A stretch of 29,369 bases of DNA from a virus, in IMG/VR virus record IMGVR_UViG_3300031718_000136, positions 1 through 29,369 of that record. One strand, 5' to 3'. Every line of letters starts with the position of its first letter. The first letter of the stretch is position 1. The position numbers and the translations under genes were made by a program. The notes under the pieces were generated by a model, which ran no database searches, was not told the DNA's origin, and saw only the letters and a list, made by a program, of their open reading frames with translations. Of this stretch, positions 2,770-26,503 are shown one piece after another.

Positions 2770-3318
2770 ATGCAAGAGTTGGACTTCAAGTCAGCGATTG
2801 AGACGAACATTATCAACCTGGGGGAGATGACGCTCGAAGCCTCTGAGGACCGTATCATTGTAATCGAGGATGAGTTTGTAAGTGGCTATGAATGCAGGAC
2901 TTGCGACGGCTTAGGCTGGTTGGAATGTGACAACTGTAAAGGTACCGGAAAGAGCACCATTTCAAAGGATGCTAGGTGCTCACAGTGTCAAGGAAACAAG
3001 CATGTCATCTGCCCCTCGTGCAAAGGAAAGACAGTCGAAGAGGGCGGGCTCGTCGTTCCCGATGCGAGCGTGCGGCGCCCAACGACCGGAACTATCGCGT
3101 CCATCGGCCCAGAAGTTACCGCGTATAAGCGTGGACAAGCAGTAATCTATACCAGCTTTAGCGGGCACGTTTTTGAATTGAATGCGTACGACTCGAAGGC
3201 GCGGCAAGTTCAGATCGTCATCCGCATCATCCAATCGAGCGACATACTTGCAAAGGTTACAGGGCATCTAGAATTGCGCCGGTTAAAGAAGAGTCAAGCG
3301 GTCGGCACAGCAGCCTAG
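2770..3318 (+). CDS. GroES-like co-chaperonin with DnaJ-type zinc domain in the mobile loop, 182 aa
   Basis: The start is ATG 2770, with AGGAG upstream. Residues 22-38 (EASEDRIIVIEDEF) match the first GroES strands. Residues 42-84 hold four CxxC modules (Cys 42/45, 53/56, 70/73, 81/84), most followed by Lys/Gln-Gly as in the DnaJ CXXCXGXG repeats. The GroES fold then resumes with GGLVVPDAS (92-100), equivalent to the mobile-loop GGIVL tripeptide region that contacts GroEL, then GTIASIGPEV, a basic GQAVIYTSFSGHVFEL segment and the closing SSDILAKV (157-163). Phage co-chaperonins such as T4 gp31 redirect host GroEL to fold capsid protein. No GroEL is encoded here, so a host partner is inferred. 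A zinc domain at this site is unusual. Confidence 0.8.
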   Translation: MQELDFKSAIETNIINLGEMTLEASEDRIIVIEDEFVSGYECRTCDGLGWLECDNCKGTGKSTISKDARCSQCQGNKHVICPSCKGKTVEEGGLVVPDASVRRPTTGTIASIGPEVTAYKRGQAVIYTSFSGHVFELNAYDSKARQVQIVIRIIQSSDILAKVTGHLELRRLKKSQAVGTAA

Positions 3319-3470: not shown

Positions 3471-4199
3471 GTGACGGCGATAGGGAAAAGCCCCGCCTTC
3501 CAATTTTATGCAGGTGAATACCTGGCTGACGAAAACGTTCAGCTAATGACCCTCGAAGAAGAGGGATGCTACATCCGCATGCTCGCGTACTGCTGGCGCG
3601 AGGGCAGTATCCCAGCCGATCACACCCTCCTTTCCCGCCTCTGCAAGAACGCCTCCGATGAGATTCTAACGGTGGTTGAACGCCGGTTCGAAAAAAGGGG
3701 AACAAGACTCATTCATCTGCGCTTAGAGTTGGAACGAAAAAAACAAAAAAACTTCAACAAGAAACAACGCATGGCTGGCATAGCATCAGGTAAAGCAAGG
3801 AGACAAAAGAGGTTATCTAACGAACCACCGTTCAACCAGCGTTCAGATTCCGTTGGAACCAAAACGAACTCTGCATTTGCATTTGCTTCTTCTACTGCGG
3901 TATTAACTACAACCCCCCCTATAGTCCCCCCAAAGGGGGGACAAAAGCCCCTGCCACCTGCGAACGGAAACGGACACAAACCAACCCACGATGAACTGCT
4001 CAAGAACGAGCGGGAATACTCCGCCATGGCATGGGGCCGGGGATTCATCGTGATTCGAACTGGCAGGCACAAGCGGCCATTCACAAAAGGACAAATCGAC
4101 TCAATGGTCGGCTGCACGATTGAGAGAGTTGTGGAGCATCTTCATGCGAAAGGTTTTTGGGCTGAGATTTACAAGCTGTCAGAGGGGGCGGATACATGA
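3471..4199 (+). CDS. DUF1376 (YdaU-like) phage replication-region protein, 242 aa
   Basis: The GTG start at 3471 has GAGG 6 bases upstream. Residues about 5-80 match the DUF1376 pattern: SPAFQFYAGEYLAD, then LEEEGCYIRMLAYCWREG, IPADHTLLSRLCKN, and a Lys-rich basic helix. This domain is common in phage and prophage proteins near replication genes and is often fused to DnaT/DnaD-like primosomal parts, though its biochemical role is unsettled. A Pro-rich linker (about 140-165) leads to a C-terminal region of about 70 residues that may be a small helical DNA-binding domain. The stop overlaps the next ATG, starting a chain of coupled small genes. Confidence 0.75.
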   Translation: MTAIGKSPAFQFYAGEYLADENVQLMTLEEEGCYIRMLAYCWREGSIPADHTLLSRLCKNASDEILTVVERRFEKRGTRLIHLRLELERKKQKNFNKKQRMAGIASGKARRQKRLSNEPPFNQRSDSVGTKTNSAFAFASSTAVLTTTPPIVPPKGGQKPLPPANGNGHKPTHDELLKNEREYSAMAWGRGFIVIRTGRHKRPFTKGQIDSMVGCTIERVVEHLHAKGFWAEIYKLSEGADT

Positions 4200-5055: not shown

Positions 5056-5208
5056 ATGCGGCTGGATCACAAGCGTTGCAACGAAGAACTGCGACAGCGA
5101 GCGGTGAAACTAAAATCCTACGGCGTTCAACACAAGATGATTGCTGAACGCCTCGGCGTTGCGCCGGCAACGGTACGAAAACTTCTCACCATGAAGGCCA
5201 AGCCGTGA
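5056..5208 (+). CDS. Minimal helix-turn-helix protein, 50 aa, possible small-terminase-like protein
   Basis: ATG 5056 opens a 50-codon frame that ends in a GTGA overlap with the large terminase start. Residues about 20-45 read as a helix-turn-helix: SYGVQHKMIAERLGVAPATV then RKLL. Small terminase subunits carry a DNA-recognition helix-turn-helix and usually lie directly before the large subunit, so position and motif suggest this role. At 50 residues it lacks the oligomerisation domain of known small terminases, so a general DNA-binding or regulatory role is equally possible. Confidence 0.6.
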   Translation: MRLDHKRCNEELRQRAVKLKSYGVQHKMIAERLGVAPATVRKLLTMKAKP

Positions 5209-6908
5209 AGTGGGAACTACTGCCGATTCCAAATGACGACGCGCAAGGTTGGAAAGATGCCGTGCGTTTGAATTCTTTGGCGAGTCTGTTTTTCTTTGCG
5301 AATTTCGTTTTGAAAAAAGCTCGACTCGCCGCGCTTCACTGGTACATTTGTAGTAGGCTTGAGAGTGACGATTTACATCTAGTACTCGAGATGCCAATGA
5401 GCAGTTTTAAATCGACGTGTGGAGCGGAAGCGTTGTCGATATGGTGGGCATTGCCATTCACGAATCGCGACGAGGACTTGATGGGCGCTCTCGGCTACGG
5501 CGACGACAATCTTGCGTTGATGCATCGGCTGCACCAGCAAAATGCCCGGACACTTGTGACGCATGAGACAAGTGCGCGCGTCGTGTCGATGGGGAAAGCG
5601 ATTGATGACCACTACCTCCACAACGACATTTTCCGGTTCGTATTTTCCGATGTGATTCCGTCGAACGATACGCAGTGGAACAACCACTCGAAGATGCACA
5701 AACGCGACCGCAGCAAGCGGATGGACCTGACGACGGCAACGTACGAATTCCGTTCTGTGGGCCAAGCATTACAGGGAATTCACGTTGACGGGATAATAAA
5801 CGATGACTCGGTAGGACGCGCCGCGCAAGAGAACATGCTCCAAGGTGACGGGTCGATCATGGACGACACGTATCGCTGGTGGAAGCAAACCACTACACGC
5901 TTCGATCCGATTGCCTTCACGCGCTCCGGTATTGGCAAACAACTCGTCATCGGAAACCGATGGGGGCACGCGGACTTGAACAGCCGCATACGCGCGAACC
6001 ATCCAGAGTTTGAGTTTGAAACACACGACGCCGAGGGTGGCTGTTGTGCGGAGCATCCCGTCCACGGCATTCCCATTTTTCCCGAAGAATGGACGATGGA
6101 GAGATTGAAAAAGCAAAAAGAAACTTTAGAGCACGACGGAAAGGGTTACGACTACATCGCGTTCTACAGAAACAAAACGTCGCTTCCCGAGGACGCGTTG
6201 TTTAAACCAGAGTGGCAGAGGAAATATATTTGCGCGGAGGCGCGGCCCGATCTCCCAGCGAGCGATTTTAGGAATTTTCTTTTGCTGCGACACCTCACGA
6301 AGCAAGACGACGAGTGGATTCCTGATTCACAAATTCCAGATTTGAACGCGGGAGTACTGCATCACAGGCTCATTGTCGTGCTTGCTGACACGAAGCGCCG
6401 CCGACCCGATCACGTCGTACTCGTTGCGGGGTACGAACCGGAGCAAGATTGGATTTATCTGCTCAAGCTCGAAGTCGGGAAGTTCATGTTCGGGGAATTG
6501 CTTGATGTGATTTACAAGCTCGCGCAGCAGCGAGGGCTTTCGGAGTTCTACGCGTCGAAGGAAGCGAAAGACGCTTTGAGGTTTTACGTGGACGAGAGGA
6601 ATCGCCGCGACAAAAAAAACGCGCTGGATGTCTTTGAGCTTGAAGCGGACGATTCGGAATCAGCGCAGAGTTTACGAATCGAAAGCCTGCAATCGCTGTT
6701 CAAGGGAAAACAATTTTGGTGCCACCCAAGTTTCAAAGAGTTCTTTGCTGAATACGAGGCTTACCCAGGCGGGCCAGTGGAAGTGCTGAACGCTGTGGGC
6801 ATGATTCCATCGACGCTCGAAGGGATTCGCAGAAAAGATTTATCAGAATGGGTTCTCGCGCAGCAGCAAGCGTTCGCTTCACGCGGTGCTGGACACGGCG
6901 GGTATTAG
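5205..6908 (+). CDS. terL: Terminase large subunit, 567 aa
   Basis: This is the DNA-packaging motor. The N-terminal ATPase has a Walker A-like segment near residues 62-71 (EMPMSSFKST) and a Walker B-like HVDGIINDDS near residue 195, the usual spacing in TerL proteins. The common PRGHGKS or PRDHFKS form is altered to PMSSFKS, losing the Arg after Pro but keeping Lys-Ser-Thr. The C-terminal half fits an RNase H-like nuclease, with Asp in LIVVLADTKR as a candidate catalytic acid. Length is normal. GTG start 5205 overlaps the upstream TGA. It is followed by an inserted HNH gene and then the portal. Confidence 0.88.
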   Translation: MKWELLPIPNDDAQGWKDAVRLNSLASLFFFANFVLKKARLAALHWYICSRLESDDLHLVLEMPMSSFKSTCGAEALSIWWALPFTNRDEDLMGALGYGDDNLALMHRLHQQNARTLVTHETSARVVSMGKAIDDHYLHNDIFRFVFSDVIPSNDTQWNNHSKMHKRDRSKRMDLTTATYEFRSVGQALQGIHVDGIINDDSVGRAAQENMLQGDGSIMDDTYRWWKQTTTRFDPIAFTRSGIGKQLVIGNRWGHADLNSRIRANHPEFEFETHDAEGGCCAEHPVHGIPIFPEEWTMERLKKQKETLEHDGKGYDYIAFYRNKTSLPEDALFKPEWQRKYICAEARPDLPASDFRNFLLLRHLTKQDDEWIPDSQIPDLNAGVLHHRLIVVLADTKRRRPDHVVLVAGYEPEQDWIYLLKLEVGKFMFGELLDVIYKLAQQRGLSEFYASKEAKDALRFYVDERNRRDKKNALDVFELEADDSESAQSLRIESLQSLFKGKQFWCHPSFKEFFAEYEAYPGGPVEVLNAVGMIPSTLEGIRRKDLSEWVLAQQQAFASRGAGHGGY

Positions 6909-6926: not shown

Positions 6927-7367
6927 ATGGAGCAGGGATTCAAAGTCGCGGTGCGCAATTTGTTCGCGCGAGTCTCCACGGATTCCGTGACGGGATGCTG
7001 GACCGTTGGTGCGAAGCGATACGCGGAGATCGCGAGCGAGCATATCCCGAACTACCGGATGTACGCGCATCGAGCGGCTTACCTGTACGCTAAGGGTCCT
7101 ATTCCCGATGGGTTTGTCGTAGATCATCTCTGCAAAAACACCCGCTGCGTAAATCCCGCGCACCTGGAGGCGGTTACGCGACGTACGAACACCCTTCGCG
7201 GCGAAGGTAAGACAGCAGTCAACGCTCAAAGATTGTTCTGCGTTAAAGGGCACCCGCTGTTCGGAGAGAATCTCCGAACGTACGAAGGCATCTCTGGACC
7301 TGCCCGTGGTTGCAAAGCTTGCGGTCGGTTGTCGGCTTTGGCCTCTAAGCGGCGTCGGCGAAGGTGA
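6927..7367 (+). CDS. HNH homing-type endonuclease, 146 aa
   Basis: The HNH_3-type core is at about residues 48-92: HRAAYLYAKGPIP, then VDHLCKNTRCVNPAHLEAV. The catalytic His of DH, the Asn-Pro and the final His are all present. A C-terminal zinc element (CVKGHPLFGENL ... CKAC) is followed by a run of Arg. Such free-standing nucleases nick DNA near their own insertion site and spread into related phages. It sits between terminase and portal and overlaps the portal start as GTGA. It has its own promoter-like sequence and no Shine-Dalgarno. Confidence 0.88.
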   Translation: MEQGFKVAVRNLFARVSTDSVTGCWTVGAKRYAEIASEHIPNYRMYAHRAAYLYAKGPIPDGFVVDHLCKNTRCVNPAHLEAVTRRTNTLRGEGKTAVNAQRLFCVKGHPLFGENLRTYEGISGPARGCKACGRLSALASKRRRRR

Positions 7368-9448
7368 GCATGGCCACTGTCCCGCAATTACCGCAAGCTG
7401 TCCCTCCCGCTCCCGTTCAAAGCGAACCGGAGAAAGAATCTCCGCGCCTAACCTACCGCTCGACTCGCGCTTTCGAAATGCGCTCGGTAGCGTTCGGCGG
7501 CGACGTAGAGAAGCAAATCAACAAGTGGATTTACGAACAGATCGACGTTCGCCAGAAACAACTCCGCAATCGACACACGAGCAAAGTTCCTGAGTGGCGA
7601 CGACTGGCATCAGGCCGACCGCGCGACGAGAACAAGAGTTGGCCGTTTGAGAACTGTGCAAATCTGGTACACCCAATCATCGGAGAATCCACCGACGAAC
7701 TATCCTCTCGCGTTCTGCAACTCATCTGGTCCATCGCCCCGATTATTTACTATCGCTACCTCGCAGCCACAAAGAGCCAAGCCGAATTAATCCACAACAC
7801 AAAAAAAGCTCGACTGCTTGAGCAGTTCATGGATTTTGTTTCGAACGATTCGCGTGAGTTGGATTTATACCGCGTGGAAAATTTGTGGTTCCACGACTCG
7901 ACTGTGATCGGAACTGCATGGGTCTGCGTCGCTCCTGAGAAGCGACTCGAAATGGTTCACATCGGGTACAGCGAGGGCGATGGAGATTTAAGCAAGCGCG
8001 GAAACAGATTTGCCGAATCTGAACTGTACGAAGGCCCAAAGGTTTTGAATCTGCGCGACGAGGATATGCTCTACGACCCCGACGCAGACACGCCGGAAGA
8101 TTCCGACCTGATGGCGAGACGTTGCTCAGTCAACCGCCGCAAACTCCAAGAGCGAGTGTTCAAAGGCTGGTACAAGAAAGCCGAAGTCGAAAAGATTCTC
8201 AACAAGCCTGACCGCTACGGGCCGACTGACATTCGCAAGCGAGAGAACTCTCGCAAGGGCATCGTTGCGGACGAAGACCCCATTCTTGCAGAGTGGGATA
8301 TTTTCGAATGTTATTTCTACTGGTACGTTGGCAAGAAGAAATACAGGCTCATCGCGTGGTACCACAAAGAAACCAAGACGCTGCTCAACTGCGTTTTTAA
8401 TTTCATCCCCGAGAATCAGATTCCGCTGATTCGAACCCGGCTCTCGCTCGGTGAATCGGGAATGAACGGGCGAGGCTTCGCGGAAATTGGCCAGTATTTC
8501 CAAGATGAAATCTCCACGACGAAAAACCAACGCATCGACGCAACGACGTGGGGAATGCTCGGACTGAATCGCTTGTCGCCGCAAAATCGAAACATCGACA
8601 AGAACATGAAAGTTTATCCGGGCGCGACTCTTCCGTTCGGTGCAAATGAGTTTGAGCACTACAACGTGGGTTCAGTAGATTGGGGCCAGCTCTCGATGTC
8701 GAACGAGAGCAGCATGATTCAGCAAGCGCGAGAAAGATTCGGCGTCGGCGCGCCAGTGATGGGCATGGGCGCAGGCACAGCAAACAAGAAAGGCCAGTTT
8801 GGAAGCATGGGCACAATGGCCGTGCTTCAAGATGGGAACTCAAGAAACAATCACCGCACGTCGGACTTCCGGCACTCGCACGTAAAACTTCTCTCGCTTT
8901 TGACGGACATGTACGGAGCGATGGGGCTCGGCGGAAAGGGTTCGCTGTTCGGACTCGATGACAAGTTGCTCGATGAAGCTCTGTCGGATTTTCTCGAACG
9001 CCGCATGAGAATTCCTGTGCGTGCTGCGACAGCAAGCGCAAACCGCGAAGTGACAAAGCAGAACTTAATGCTCTTGAATCCCGCGTACGACGGCTACGTA
9101 AAAGCGATGTCAACGGCGATTCAAGCAACGCAGAATTCGCAGCTTCCCGATTTCTACAAAAAGTGGCTGAAGGAAACGGCCATCGGGAAAATGCATTTAT
9201 TCCAGCAGATGATTCGCGAATTCCAACTGGCGGACAATCCAGAAGAGTTTGTTCCCAACATCGACTTCCCCGCAGAAGGACAGCAACCGAATGCCCCGCA
9301 AGCGCAACGACCCCAACAACCCAATCCCAACGGACTCGCAGCGGTGGCCCAACTTCTTCGCAAACCTGGCGGCGGCGCGGTCCCTGGTGGAGCACCCGCA
9401 CTTCCAGGCATTCCTGGCGGACCTGAGACTCCTCCGGCTGGCGCTTGA
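7364..9448 (+). CDS. Portal protein, P22-like, 694 aa
   Basis: The portal forms the ring at one capsid vertex through which DNA enters and to which the tail attaches. Position directly after the terminase, size near 700 residues and sequence style (NCANLVHPIIGESTDELSS; later SGMNGRGFAEIGQYFQDEIS and the long helical DATTWGMLGLN region) fit the podovirus portal group. The last 60 residues are Gln/Pro/Gly-rich and probably disordered; this stretch overlaps another gene in a different frame. Start could be GTG 7364 (coupled to the HNH stop) or ATG 7370. Confidence 0.85.
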   Translation: MSMATVPQLPQAVPPAPVQSEPEKESPRLTYRSTRAFEMRSVAFGGDVEKQINKWIYEQIDVRQKQLRNRHTSKVPEWRRLASGRPRDENKSWPFENCANLVHPIIGESTDELSSRVLQLIWSIAPIIYYRYLAATKSQAELIHNTKKARLLEQFMDFVSNDSRELDLYRVENLWFHDSTVIGTAWVCVAPEKRLEMVHIGYSEGDGDLSKRGNRFAESELYEGPKVLNLRDEDMLYDPDADTPEDSDLMARRCSVNRRKLQERVFKGWYKKAEVEKILNKPDRYGPTDIRKRENSRKGIVADEDPILAEWDIFECYFYWYVGKKKYRLIAWYHKETKTLLNCVFNFIPENQIPLIRTRLSLGESGMNGRGFAEIGQYFQDEISTTKNQRIDATTWGMLGLNRLSPQNRNIDKNMKVYPGATLPFGANEFEHYNVGSVDWGQLSMSNESSMIQQARERFGVGAPVMGMGAGTANKKGQFGSMGTMAVLQDGNSRNNHRTSDFRHSHVKLLSLLTDMYGAMGLGGKGSLFGLDDKLLDEALSDFLERRMRIPVRAATASANREVTKQNLMLLNPAYDGYVKAMSTAIQATQNSQLPDFYKKWLKETAIGKMHLFQQMIREFQLADNPEEFVPNIDFPAEGQQPNAPQAQRPQQPNPNGLAAVAQLLRKPGGGAVPGGAPALPGIPGGPETPPAGA

Positions 9449-9575: not shown

Positions 9576-9751
9576 GAATGGTTAAACATCCCGAGCGCGT
9601 GACTTTGAACCTCGTACTGAACGGCGAACCGTTTGACTGCTTCATGGTCACGAAATCTAGTTGGGAGCACTTTCTTCAGAGGCTATCGGAAAAAGACTTG
9701 CCTACAACTCCCGCACCTCGTCCCTCCGAAGCGCACCGATGCACTGCCTAA
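9572..9751 (+). CDS. Small hypothetical protein, 59 aa
   Basis: ATG 9572 overlaps the previous TGA as ATGA; the frame is open further upstream but the coupled ATG is preferred. The product (MRMVKHPERVTLNLVLNGEP and onward, about 45 residues folded) has a beta-like start, a short helix and a Pro-rich tail. The 3' end overlaps the start of the second HNH gene by 13 bases, so the tail may have been altered by that insertion. Unrecognised. Confidence 0.6.
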   Translation: MRMVKHPERVTLNLVLNGEPFDCFMVTKSSWEHFLQRLSEKDLPTTPAPRPSEAHRCTA

Positions 9752-10116
9752 AAAATAATTTCTGGGAGTACGTTACGAAAACAGAAGCGTGCTGGCTCTG
9801 GACGGGCGCGCTGACGCGTCGCGGCTACGGGCACTTCCAATTTTTCGACTTAAAGTTACACAGACGCCGACAGATTGGCGCTCACCGATTCAGTTATCTG
9901 CTCGTTCACGGCGATCTTCCCGACGATGTTCTCATCCACCACAAGTGCGAAATAAAAGTCTGCGTGAACCCTGAGCACTTGGAGGCGCTGTCCGCTCTTG
10001 AGCACCGCAGAACTCACCCCGGAGCGTATGTGCACGTGGACCAGGGGGACAGAGCGTTGGCGGATTGGGCATCGGGGAAATTCTGGGCAAAGCAAAATCT
10101 TTCACTTGAGGCTTGA
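9739..10116 (+). CDS. HNH homing-type endonuclease, 125 aa
   Basis: The start is taken as ATG 9739 because the conserved N-terminal pattern (FWEYVTKTEACWLWTGAL) begins there; upstream codons belong to the neighbouring gene's other frame. The HNH core is AHRFSYLLVHGDLP, then HHKCEIKVCVNPEHLEAL with intact His, Asn and His. The C-terminus is short and lacks a clear helix-turn-helix. It lies between the post-portal genes and the scaffold candidate. Unlike three other HNH genes here, no promoter is seen just before it. Confidence 0.85.
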   Translation: MHCLKNNFWEYVTKTEACWLWTGALTRRGYGHFQFFDLKLHRRRQIGAHRFSYLLVHGDLPDDVLIHHKCEIKVCVNPEHLEALSALEHRRTHPGAYVHVDQGDRALADWASGKFWAKQNLSLEA

Positions 10117-12119: not shown

Positions 12120-13085
12120 ATGGCGCCGTTTGGTATCATGAATCGCCAGTCCTTCCCGCCGCTATTGGCGCCTGGGTTAAGACACATATTCGTTGAATTT
12201 TTCGATTTGAAAGAACACGCCCCGCAGTACCCGCACTACATGAACGAAATGACATCGGAAGATGCCTACGAGATTGACTACCAACTCTCGGGCACTGGGC
12301 CGATGCCGCTCATGCCCGAAGGTACCGCGCCGACTGTAGACTCCATGATTCAGGGCGGCACGAAAAAGTATCTGCACTTGCAGTACGGATTGATTTCCGA
12401 AGTTACGCGCCAGCTAATTGCTGACGACAAGTACGGCATCGTTCGACAGATGCCCAAGTCTCATGCTCGTTCTGGCCTCTTTGGTCGAGAGGCTGTGTGC
12501 TGCTCGTTGTTCAATCTTGGCGGAACGCTCATCACGACCAACGATGGGGTAACGCTGTTCAATACTGCTCATCCGTTGCTCGGTGGCACAGCGGCGACGG
12601 CGACAGCGCCGGGAATCACAAACATCATTGCGGCGGCGGGCACCTATCCCAACCGGCCAAACCCCGACACCGATCTTGGCGACACGGCGTTGCAGCAAGC
12701 AATTAATATTTTCGCGCGCATGCCGGACGGTCGCGGAATTCCAGTTCACGTTCACCCGCGCCACCTGATTCACCCGCCCGAACTTCGGCGCTTGACGCGC
12801 GAACTCCTCGGCTCGCCAGGTGTCCCGTTCAGCGCGGACAACGAGCTGAACTGGCTGCAAGCTGAAAATCTTCAGGGCCTCGAATTGAACTACCTGACCT
12901 CAACGTCAGGCTGGGGTCTCATCACTGAGAAGTCCGGCCACCAAATGAAATTCTATGAGCGCGAACCGCTCATGGCTGCCACCGATGACGATTTTAAGAC
13001 GGAAGTCTTGCTGTTCAAATCGACGCAGCGGTTCAGTGCGGGCGCGACTGTCTGGCAAGGAACATTTTTTTCTTACGGGCCTTAG
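12120..13085 (+). CDS. Major capsid protein, HK97-fold type, 321 aa
   Basis: A strong GAGGAGG Shine-Dalgarno precedes ATG 12120, as expected for the most abundant virion protein. The sequence has a LFNTAHPLLGG segment and a PNRPNPDTDLGDTALQQAI helix followed by a GIPVHVHPRHLIHPPELRRL region. These are seen in HK97-fold capsid proteins related to the Mu gpT group. Length is normal. There is no long N-terminal delta domain, consistent with a separate scaffold. An HNH gene with its own promoter follows. Confidence 0.8.
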   Translation: MAPFGIMNRQSFPPLLAPGLRHIFVEFFDLKEHAPQYPHYMNEMTSEDAYEIDYQLSGTGPMPLMPEGTAPTVDSMIQGGTKKYLHLQYGLISEVTRQLIADDKYGIVRQMPKSHARSGLFGREAVCCSLFNLGGTLITTNDGVTLFNTAHPLLGGTAATATAPGITNIIAAAGTYPNRPNPDTDLGDTALQQAINIFARMPDGRGIPVHVHPRHLIHPPELRRLTRELLGSPGVPFSADNELNWLQAENLQGLELNYLTSTSGWGLITEKSGHQMKFYEREPLMAATDDDFKTEVLLFKSTQRFSAGATVWQGTFFSYGP

Positions 13086-24695: not shown

Positions 24696-25229
24696 GTGAA
24701 GCACTATCGCACGCGCAAGTGCAAGCTCTGCCCCAATCTATTCGAAGTGCGCGGCGGCGTGCAAATTTTCTGCTCGCTGCCGTGTTCTATTTGGGGCCGT
24801 GTAATTATCGGTAGAGTTGATGAGTGCTGGCCGTGGGCCGGATCGCTCGACAAACGTGGCTACGGTGTCGTCGCCAGAGGCCACAGTCTCACGCTCGGAA
24901 GAGTGGGGCGCGAGATTCTGGCGATGAAGATGAAGCGAAGATTATTGCCGACCGAAGAGGCGTGCCACTCCTGCGACAATCCTCCATGTTGCAATCCCCA
25001 CCATCTGTGGGCCGGAACCCGAAAAGAAAACGACAACGACGCAGTTAAGAAGCGCCGCAAATCGGTCGGAACTTTAAACGGGCGCGTTAAACTAACGGAG
25101 CAGCAAGTAAGAATTTTACGGTCGATGAGCTTCGTGCTCATTACGGGACGGCATGTGGCTGAGTTGTTGGAGTGCACTCCGACCGCTATTTCCTTCGCGG
25201 TTCGCGGTGTGAACTGGAGGCATTTGTGA
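24696..25229 (+). CDS. HNH homing-type endonuclease, 177 aa
   Basis: GTG 24696 is the start. An N-terminal zinc knuckle (CKLCPNLFEVRGGVQIFCSL) precedes the HNH part: CWPWAGSLDKRGYGVV, then CHSCDNPPCCNPHHLWAGT with Asn-Pro-x-His intact, where the first catalytic His is in CHSC. NDNDAVKKRRK follows. The C-terminus has a helix-turn-helix-like segment (LTEQQVRILRSMSF ... VAELLECTPTAISFAVRG). The gene ends in a GTGA overlap with the ATP-grasp gene and contains that gene's GGAGG site, so it is well fitted into the operon. Confidence 0.87.
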   Translation: MKHYRTRKCKLCPNLFEVRGGVQIFCSLPCSIWGRVIIGRVDECWPWAGSLDKRGYGVVARGHSLTLGRVGREILAMKMKRRLLPTEEACHSCDNPPCCNPHHLWAGTRKENDNDAVKKRRKSVGTLNGRVKLTEQQVRILRSMSFVLITGRHVAELLECTPTAISFAVRGVNWRHL

Positions 25230-26503
25230 GGGTTTGTGTCGCCAGTATTTTTGCGGAAGCCGCATGGTTCTCGCATCTTCTCTCGACGCAGGGGCACGAC
25301 GTTTCGCTCGCAGTCAGTGACGACCGTTACGAACAAGTGTTGGGCGGAATGGTAAAGGTCATGCCAAAAGAAGTCGCGTACAGTGCTGACCAATATGATT
25401 TGGTTGTTTTCGGAGAGACTGGCTCCGGTAAAGACGCAGACAGAGCGCGCGAACAAACTCCCACCGTTGGCGACTCCGTGTTAGCAGATACCCTCGAAGA
25501 AAATCGCGAAGCCTCGCTCGAATTTATGCAGCAATGCGGGATTCAAGTCTCGCCGTGGGAAGTTTTCAGTGACCCGTCCGACGCGATTCGACACATCAAA
25601 AAAACAAAAAAGCGGTACGTGTTCAAGCCGATAGGCGACCAAGACGACAAATCAACCACGTACGTCTCAAAGTCCGCCGAGGATTTGCTCCACTACTTCG
25701 ATGTGCTCTTTCGCTCTGCGAAAGTATCGAAGTTCGTTTTGCAAGAGTTTGTCGCTGGGACGGAAGTCTCGACACAATGCTACATGAACGAGTCTGGATA
25801 CTACGCGCTGAACCACACACTCGAAACAAAAAAGCTGATGAACGGCGACGTTGGACCGAACACAGGCTGTTCTGGCTCTCTTGTGTGGCTCGCGAATCGC
25901 GACAACGTTCTGTTTGAAAAAGGTTTGAAGAAAGCAATCGCCCCACTTCAAGAAATGGGATACGTCGGGCCGATTGATCTAAATACAATCGTTAACGAGC
26001 AGGGAGTGTTCGGCCTGGAATTTTGTCCGCGCTTTGGATATGACTCCGATGCGCTGCTCACGCGGCTCATCGGCGGGAACTTCGGAGATTTTCTTTTTGC
26101 AATCGCGACTGACCAGCGGCCAGCGGAAATTATTCCGCGCCACTCGTTCTGTGCGTCGGTGCGGTTGAGTGTGCCTCCATATCCGTGTGAGGCGTTGCCG
26201 GAAACATTCTACAAAGCAGGAATCCCAATCGAGGGGCTGACGGAGAAAAACTTCGACCGCTTCTACGTGTATGATGTTCGCAAACGAGCGGAAGATGCGG
26301 ACGATCTTGAGACAGCGGGCATCTGTGGTTGGGTGGGGTCGCCTTTGGCGGTGGGTGAGACTCCCGGCCACGCCTTTACTGAAGCATACGAAATGCTCAA
26401 GCACGTTCGCGTACCCAACGGCCAGTACAGAACAGACGTTCACAGCAATACAGCAAAAAGATACGCAGAACTCCGAGAAGGTGGATGGTTGAATCCGGCA
26501 TGA
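25226..26503 (+). CDS. PurD-like ATP-grasp ligase, 425 aa
   Basis: GTG 25226, five bases after GGAGG, overlaps the HNH stop. The order matches phosphoribosylamine-glycine ligase: a Rossmann-like start, the DLVVFGETGSG loop near 58-67, ATP-grasp from about 90 with RYVFKPIGD (130-138) and LQEFVAGTEVS (172-182), GDVGPNTGCSG (207-217) equivalent to the PurD GDTGPNTGGMG signature, EFCPRFG (265-271) in place of EFNxRFG, and a PurD-type C-terminus (NGQYRTDV). The usual metal-binding Asn is replaced by Cys266. PurD makes glycinamide ribonucleotide in purine synthesis. Here a modified substrate or an acidic peptide target (next gene) is possible. The family is secure, the substrate is not. Confidence 0.8.
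   Translation: MRVCVASIFAEAAWFSHLLSTQGHDVSLAVSDDRYEQVLGGMVKVMPKEVAYSADQYDLVVFGETGSGKDADRAREQTPTVGDSVLADTLEENREASLEFMQQCGIQVSPWEVFSDPSDAIRHIKKTKKRYVFKPIGDQDDKSTTYVSKSAEDLLHYFDVLFRSAKVSKFVLQEFVAGTEVSTQCYMNESGYYALNHTLETKKLMNGDVGPNTGCSGSLVWLANRDNVLFEKGLKKAIAPLQEMGYVGPIDLNTIVNEQGVFGLEFCPRFGYDSDALLTRLIGGNFGDFLFAIATDQRPAEIIPRHSFCASVRLSVPPYPCEALPETFYKAGIPIEGLTEKNFDRFYVYDVRKRAEDADDLETAGICGWVGSPLAVGETPGHAFTEAYEMLKHVRVPNGQYRTDVHSNTAKRYAELREGGWLNPA

Follow-up and report, generated by a model that had tools for sequence, protein, structure and literature searches.

The mobile loop of the co-chaperonin GroES is the part that binds GroEL, and it is normally short and flexible. Co-chaperonins of this fold are also encoded by phages; gp31 of phage T4 has a lengthened mobile loop, no roof loop and a tie to virion morphogenesis (PMC6318259). 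The subject of this analysis is a further phage-encoded protein, here called Zn-GroES, whose gene lies at positions 2770-3318 of the viral record IMGVR_UViG_3300031718_000136 from IMG/VR; this record, with its 29,369 bases, is referred to as the window. By the sequence and structure tests applied here, Zn-GroES is a GroES-fold co-chaperonin carrying a new domain in its key loop.

HspA of Helicobacter pylori is likewise a GroES with an added metal-binding, cysteine-containing part, but the addition in HspA is a C-terminal tail rich in histidine and cysteine that binds nickel; in Zn-GroES it is a folded zinc domain within the mobile loop. With gp31 and other phage GroES proteins, Zn-GroES shares the phage-encoded GroES fold and, probably, use with the host GroEL, and with gp31 in particular the long mobile loop, the missing roof loop and the link to virion genes. 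It differs from gp31, which has no zinc domain, in carrying a folded zinc domain of about 50 residues in the loop and in being a syntenic core gene near that of the large terminase (TerL). The barrel fold, the tripeptide of hydrophobic residues after GG and the closing DILA segment are common to Zn-GroES, bacterial GroES/Cpn10 (PF00166) and chloroplast Cpn20. Zn-GroES, in contrast, has extensions at both termini. Between the first strand and the second glycine of GGIVL it has about 60 residues, compared with about 7 in E. coli GroES, and its roof loop has 8 residues rather than the 17 of E. coli GroES. BSD2, ZnJ2 and the DnaJ cysteine-rich domain (PF00684, PF25436) share with it the four CxxC(xGxG) motifs and a BSD2-like fold over residues 38-92, but these zinc domains are free-standing or lie within DnaJ, whereas that of Zn-GroES lies inside a co-chaperonin loop and is accompanied by no J-domain.

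Domain architecture of Zn-GroES

The open reading frame (ORF) encodes a GroES (Cpn10) beta-barrel with a zinc domain of the DnaJ/BSD2 type, containing four CxxC motifs, built into the first limb of its mobile loop, which confirms the original prediction, made from the sequence alone, of a GroES-like protein with a DnaJ-type zinc domain inserted in this loop. The gene starts with ATG, encodes 182 amino acids plus a stop, and is preceded by a putative ribosome-binding site, AGGAG, at 2757-2761, 8 bases 5' of the start codon; this site and all segments of the gene given below are on the plus strand. An N-terminal extension absent from GroES (residues 1-21, 2770-2832) forms a helix at residues 6-12 and then a strand in the predicted structure, and most structural matches to GroES start at residues 18-22. 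The first GroES strand (28-33 in the model) and the start of the mobile loop follow in residues 22-38 (2833-2883), where D34 is invariant and S38 nearly so in the family alignment. The inserted domain, delimited by the BSD2 fold match and by the BSD2/DnaJ profile match, occupies residues 39-91 (2884-3042). It holds four CxxC motifs with GxG spacing: C42 and C45 (2893-2904), C53 and C56 (2926-2937), C70 and C73 (2977-2988), and C81 and C84 (3010-3021). Judged by these cysteines, each domain would bind two zinc ions.

After the insert, the GGLVVP segment (residues 92-97, 3043-3060) was identified as the equivalent of the GroEL-contacting GGIVL of GroES by hidden Markov model (HMM) alignment to co-chaperonin segments; the tripeptide at the GGLVV position is hydrophobic in most family members. 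The GroES barrel core (residues 98-163, 3061-3258) closes with SSDILAKV (156-163) and contains a shortened roof loop of 8 residues (114-121, 3109-3132), as determined from the alignment and a census of loop lengths. The roof beta-hairpin of GroES is thus absent from the window protein; gp31 is also without it, so it is not a strict requirement of Cpn10 proteins (PMC6318259). The C-terminal extension (residues 164-182, 3259-3315) has a conserved G-H-L-E-L-R, and both extensions are conserved among relatives. The residue positions originally proposed for the four cysteine pairs, GGLVV and SSDILAKV agree with this reading of the ORF; the absent roof hairpin, the two terminal extensions and the second zinc hairpin of some relatives go beyond the original prediction.

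Against Pfam, the window protein matched Cpn10 above the cut-off (E 3.7e-6; 27.3 bits, cut-off 21.1), and it also matched PHROG 3188, 'co-chaperonin GroES' (1.4e-6). A Cpn10 match above the cut-off was obtained in 23 of 24 viral records, and each of the 24 records tested had a single Cpn10 gene; in the record of relative L017 (G008) the match was split into two weak pieces. When 45 relatives were scanned singly, all matched Cpn10 and 31 matched the DnaJ central domain. The zinc domain of the window protein itself scored below both cut-offs as a single sequence (PF00684, 17.8 against 32.7; BSD2_CRD, 24.8 against 27), and relative L069 scored 33.0 against the PF00684 cut-off of 32.7. A family profile built from 29 relatives was compared with the PDB. 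Profile positions 87-162 matched co-chaperonins with values down to 1.7e-15, the best sequence match among them being the Cpn20 of 7ekq, and positions 42-90 matched BSD2 (2.9e-5) and the cysteine-rich domain of E. coli DnaJ (6.2e-4). The matches of this search did not include gp31, and no Pfam match to a J-domain was found in the window protein or in the relatives scanned.

The AlphaFold model of the window protein, for which the family alignment served as input, had a mean predicted local distance difference test (pLDDT) value of 78.7. Apart from the termini, the lowest region was the tripeptide loop (pLDDT 61), as is expected of a mobile loop. A Foldseek search with the model ranked GroES first (E 5.1e-5) and BSD2 (6ekc) third (E 1e-3, probability 1.00). 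In VIA, Cpn10 (1p3h) matched with Z 10.3 across model residues 18-165, a range that places the GroES fold on both sides of the insert, and gp31 (2cgt) matched with Z 9.4 at about 10% identity in the structural alignment. BSD2 matched model residues 38-92 with Z 6.9 (55 residues; root-mean-square deviation (rmsd) 2.6); a Z value under 8 is modest by itself, so the assignment of a BSD2-like fold rests on the sequence match too. A second model, made for relative L069, had a pLDDT of 86.4 and the same GroES fold. The GroES fold that had been proposed for the part after the insert (residues 90-163) was accordingly adopted in the model and recovered in the Foldseek and VIA matches. No full-length match was found among the matches listed from BFVD, a database of predicted viral structures; those were ordinary viral GroES proteins with a query template modelling score of at most 0.41.

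Relatives, insertion point and natural variants

Three scans were performed for relatives. A DNA pattern scan of IMG/VR gave four diverged homologues, a profile scan gave 31 loci of the same architecture, and a third scan was queried with the GroES core 3' of the insert alone, which was able to catch zinc-free relatives; the zinc domain was present in every match of this last scan. Altogether about 66 distinct viral proteins, from environmental phages of a little-known group, belong to the family, and none of them is zinc-free. At least four CxxC motifs are present in 60 of 66; of the remaining six, two are truncated at contig ends, three (L078-L080) have one pair as CxC, and one, L037, is truly reduced. 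Among 45 diverse relatives, both cysteines were aligned in 45 for motif 1, 41 for motif 2 (CxC in L078-L080, and aligned as lost in L037), 45 for motif 3 and 44 for motif 4 (lost in L037). All eight cysteines were aligned in 41, with one cysteine shifted in 3 more.

In all complete relatives the insert lies at the identical place, directly before the hydrophobic tripeptide, so the expectation that it would always fall at the mobile loop held for the homologues found. Homologues with the two domains separate or in another order, the case that had been named as speaking against the architecture, were not found, including in searches with the GroES core or the terminase alone. The ratio of nonsynonymous to synonymous substitution rates (dN/dS) was 0.03-0.04 for the window gene against relatives L002 and L010 (0.029-0.040 among the three) and 0.055 in two further pairs, indicating purifying selection. 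A spurious ORF or a chance clustering of CxxC motifs was ruled out by these ratios together with the relatives, and fusion of two genes through an assembly error was ruled out by the occurrence of about 66 relatives in many metagenomes.

Several members depart from the common plan. L037 (7172-7624) has lost two of the four CxxC motifs and keeps one zinc hairpin, the rest of the protein being normal. From the spacing of the remainder (GTGKS...KCxxC), its motifs are read here as 2 and 3, by which motifs 1 and 4 would have been lost together; the automatic alignment instead puts the first remaining motif at motif 1. In DnaJ, motifs 1 and 4 together bind one zinc. Three other members, L017 (3124-3768), L069 (4647-5345) and L072 (4698-5369), have a second module with two CxxCxGxG-like motifs at the position of the roof loop, which has 7-10 residues in ordinary members (16 in one). 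Since these three stand on separate branches of the tree, three changes are required. Part of the L069 model could be superposed on UvrA structures (about 33 columns, rmsd 0.6-1.1). Judged by the sequence, this part is most likely the hairpin at the roof position; the likeness to the UvrA zinc hairpin is local only, that of a two-CxxCxGxG hairpin with no counterpart in the window protein. As a separate observation, small ORFs in the records of L016 and L021 (G007:C1:4670-4759 and G011:C1:14835-14987) showed a weak match to the zinc part of the profile only.

Beyond these viral records, no cellular relative was confirmed when 84,980 species genomes were scanned with patterns in two rounds; these scans needed exact short peptides, and distant relatives may escape them. 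A tblastn search of cultivated phages and plasmids gave no full-length relative. Those tblastn matches that were examined proved to be DnaJ, ordinary GroES or unrelated megaphage proteins rich in CxxC, and the match in Bacteroides phage SJC03 (L148) was an ordinary zinc-free GroES. A protein of a 642-kb uncultured phage (L144, 259-2223; LR756502.1) has a very long CxxCxGxG array after a different N-terminal domain and is unrelated to GroES. The architecture was not found in Pfam, PHROGs, NCBIfam, PDB, BFVD, INPHARED or PLSDB. No description of a zinc domain in GroES, or of a phage zinc co-chaperonin, was found in the open papers searched, a scope outside which subscription papers and preprints lie; the initial impression that this was not a described phage family was borne out within these sources.

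Gene order and search for a phage GroEL

Of 48 loci, 44 have the Zn-GroES gene upstream of TerL and in the same orientation, with a spacing that ranges from overlap to about 2 kb. After TerL comes the portal gene, followed in loci with sufficient sequence by a shared set of further genes and the capsid gene. In the window, the conserved downstream neighbours, all on the plus strand, are the large terminase (5205-6908; phrog_38, 4.1e-26) and the portal protein (7364-9448; phrog_332, 2.4e-10; phrog_1216, 3.2e-5; SU10_portal, 2.2e-6), followed by the major capsid protein (12120-13085; phrog_371, 2.1e-14; Phage_capsid_4, 3.2e-11). Among sequenced phages, the closest terminase is 21% identical and the closest portal 19%.

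When loci were selected by TerL instead, 65 of 80 carried the Zn-GroES gene and 15 were too short to tell; none with at least 2.5 kb upstream lacked it. The TerL profile was built from gene-carrying genomes, and the best 80 of 193 matches were kept, so the statement that the gene is always present holds for this lineage. Tree distances of TerL and Zn-GroES were correlated (Spearman 0.68; 0/2000 permutations). A search for Cpn60 (GroEL) found none in 35 viral records, and the positive controls worked. Several of the viral records are 46-50 kb long; since none is certified complete, the host is the probable rather than the established source of the GroEL partner.

Other genes were noted around the locus. 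A primosomal-protein-like gene (3471-4199; phrog_9327, 6.3e-15) stands between Zn-GroES and the terminase, and the two genes abut in many relatives. On the other side, a tail-fibre-like protein is encoded on the minus strand (1924-2478; phrog_1491, 1.8e-15), and a long plus-strand ORF overlapping it (1876-2754) is probably spurious at least in part. An HNH endonuclease gene (6927-7367; phrog_826, 7.2e-35) lies between terminase and portal, and 9661-10116 belongs to the same cluster; the head module is thus interspersed with homing-type genes. Farther away, 25172-26503 encodes an ATP-grasp protein of the phosphoribosylglycinamide synthetase type (GARS_A, 5.2e-15), for which the PHROGs gave no informative match.

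Proposed function and its alternatives

By analogy with gp31, Zn-GroES would be a co-chaperonin that caps the host GroEL for the benefit of virion proteins, with zinc arms at the interface of lid and chamber that may hold substrate or tune binding. The GroES-fold subunits would probably form a heptameric ring, as in GroES and gp31, which would cap the host's own GroEL through the conserved hydrophobic tripeptide after the insert, and the capped GroEL would help to fold virion proteins encoded downstream (capsid, portal or terminase). Because each GroEL-reaching loop bears a zinc domain on its first limb, a heptamer would carry up to seven of them as a crown of arms at this interface. The most likely task of the arms is to hold viral protein in a non-native state and to make the loop stiffer or longer, which would combine holdase and lid in one polypeptide; a probability of roughly 60% is assigned to this reading as a whole. 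It is plausible, as the original prediction proposed, that lid contact is joined to a substrate- or zinc-binding hub through which the phage acts on host GroEL; the position of the gene beside those for terminase, portal and capsid and the lack of a phage GroEL in the records searched strengthen this idea. A tentative extension is that the lid bears a ring of DnaJ-like client-binding arms, with the roof hairpin added in some lineages, so that Hsp40-like holding and Hsp10-like closing would be fused and host GroEL dedicated to virion proteins.

Several points weigh against a capping role with client-holding arms. Chamber size is the usual argument for gp31, and the major capsid protein of this phage is small (321 amino acids), so chamber size may not be what is at stake. 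Docking to GroEL could suffer from a zinc domain at the loop. The records are mostly incomplete, and a phage GroEL could be missed. In the diverged members L038 and L078-L080, which belong to other phage lineages, the gene comes after those for DNA polymerase and primase and is not beside TerL, so Zn-GroES is not confined to one gene order. Finally, ZnJ2, a DnaJ-type zinc domain that occurs by itself, is zinc-binding and acts as a holdase, and this activity is independent of its cysteines (PMC5818400), by which the zinc could be purely structural.

The main rival keeps the same co-chaperonin but reduces the zinc domain to a rigid spacer or a tuner of affinity, either matched to the host GroEL or serving to outcompete the host GroES, with no substrate contact. 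Every member has the insertion precisely in the loop that contacts GroEL, the mobile loop of gp31 is also longer than that of GroES (22 against 16 residues; PMC6318259), and L037, otherwise normal with its single zinc hairpin, fits a spacer. This explanation is nevertheless rather unlikely, since zinc domains of the DnaJ/BSD2 type are known client-binding or holdase modules (PMC5818400; BSD2-RbcL structures were among the Foldseek matches); the holdase activity of ZnJ2 and the binding of RbcL by BSD2 make client holding the leading idea and tuning of loop length or stiffness its competitor. The second zinc hairpin, moreover, replaced the roof loop in three lineages, at a place without GroEL contact, which indirectly favours contact with clients over mere tuning to GroEL. 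It is very improbable that the GroES-fold ring was repurposed for packaging, for example in the role and gene position of a small terminase. The site upstream of TerL is the usual one for that gene, and the small ORFs tested in the neighbourhood included no recognisable small terminase, which proves little. Small terminases are often too diverged for recognition; the retained hydrophobic tripeptide and GroES closing segment, and the placement near polymerase and primase genes in L038 and L078-L080, speak against such a role. A role as inhibitor or decoy, in which Zn-GroES would not aid folding but block host GroEL, host redox control or a defence pathway in the infected cell, would be equally surprising, because conservation as a core gene and close association with the head genes throughout a very diverged lineage fit morphogenesis better than an accessory anti-host role.

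With a folded zinc domain in its mobile loop throughout a very diverged, head-gene-linked family, Zn-GroES indicates that the GroEL lid is far more open to building than was known, and it offers a testable way for phages to re-target host GroEL. Nature has supplied variants for dissecting the arms, one with half of the zinc domain and three with an extra roof hairpin, and the architecture is a possible design for lids that bring chosen clients to GroEL.
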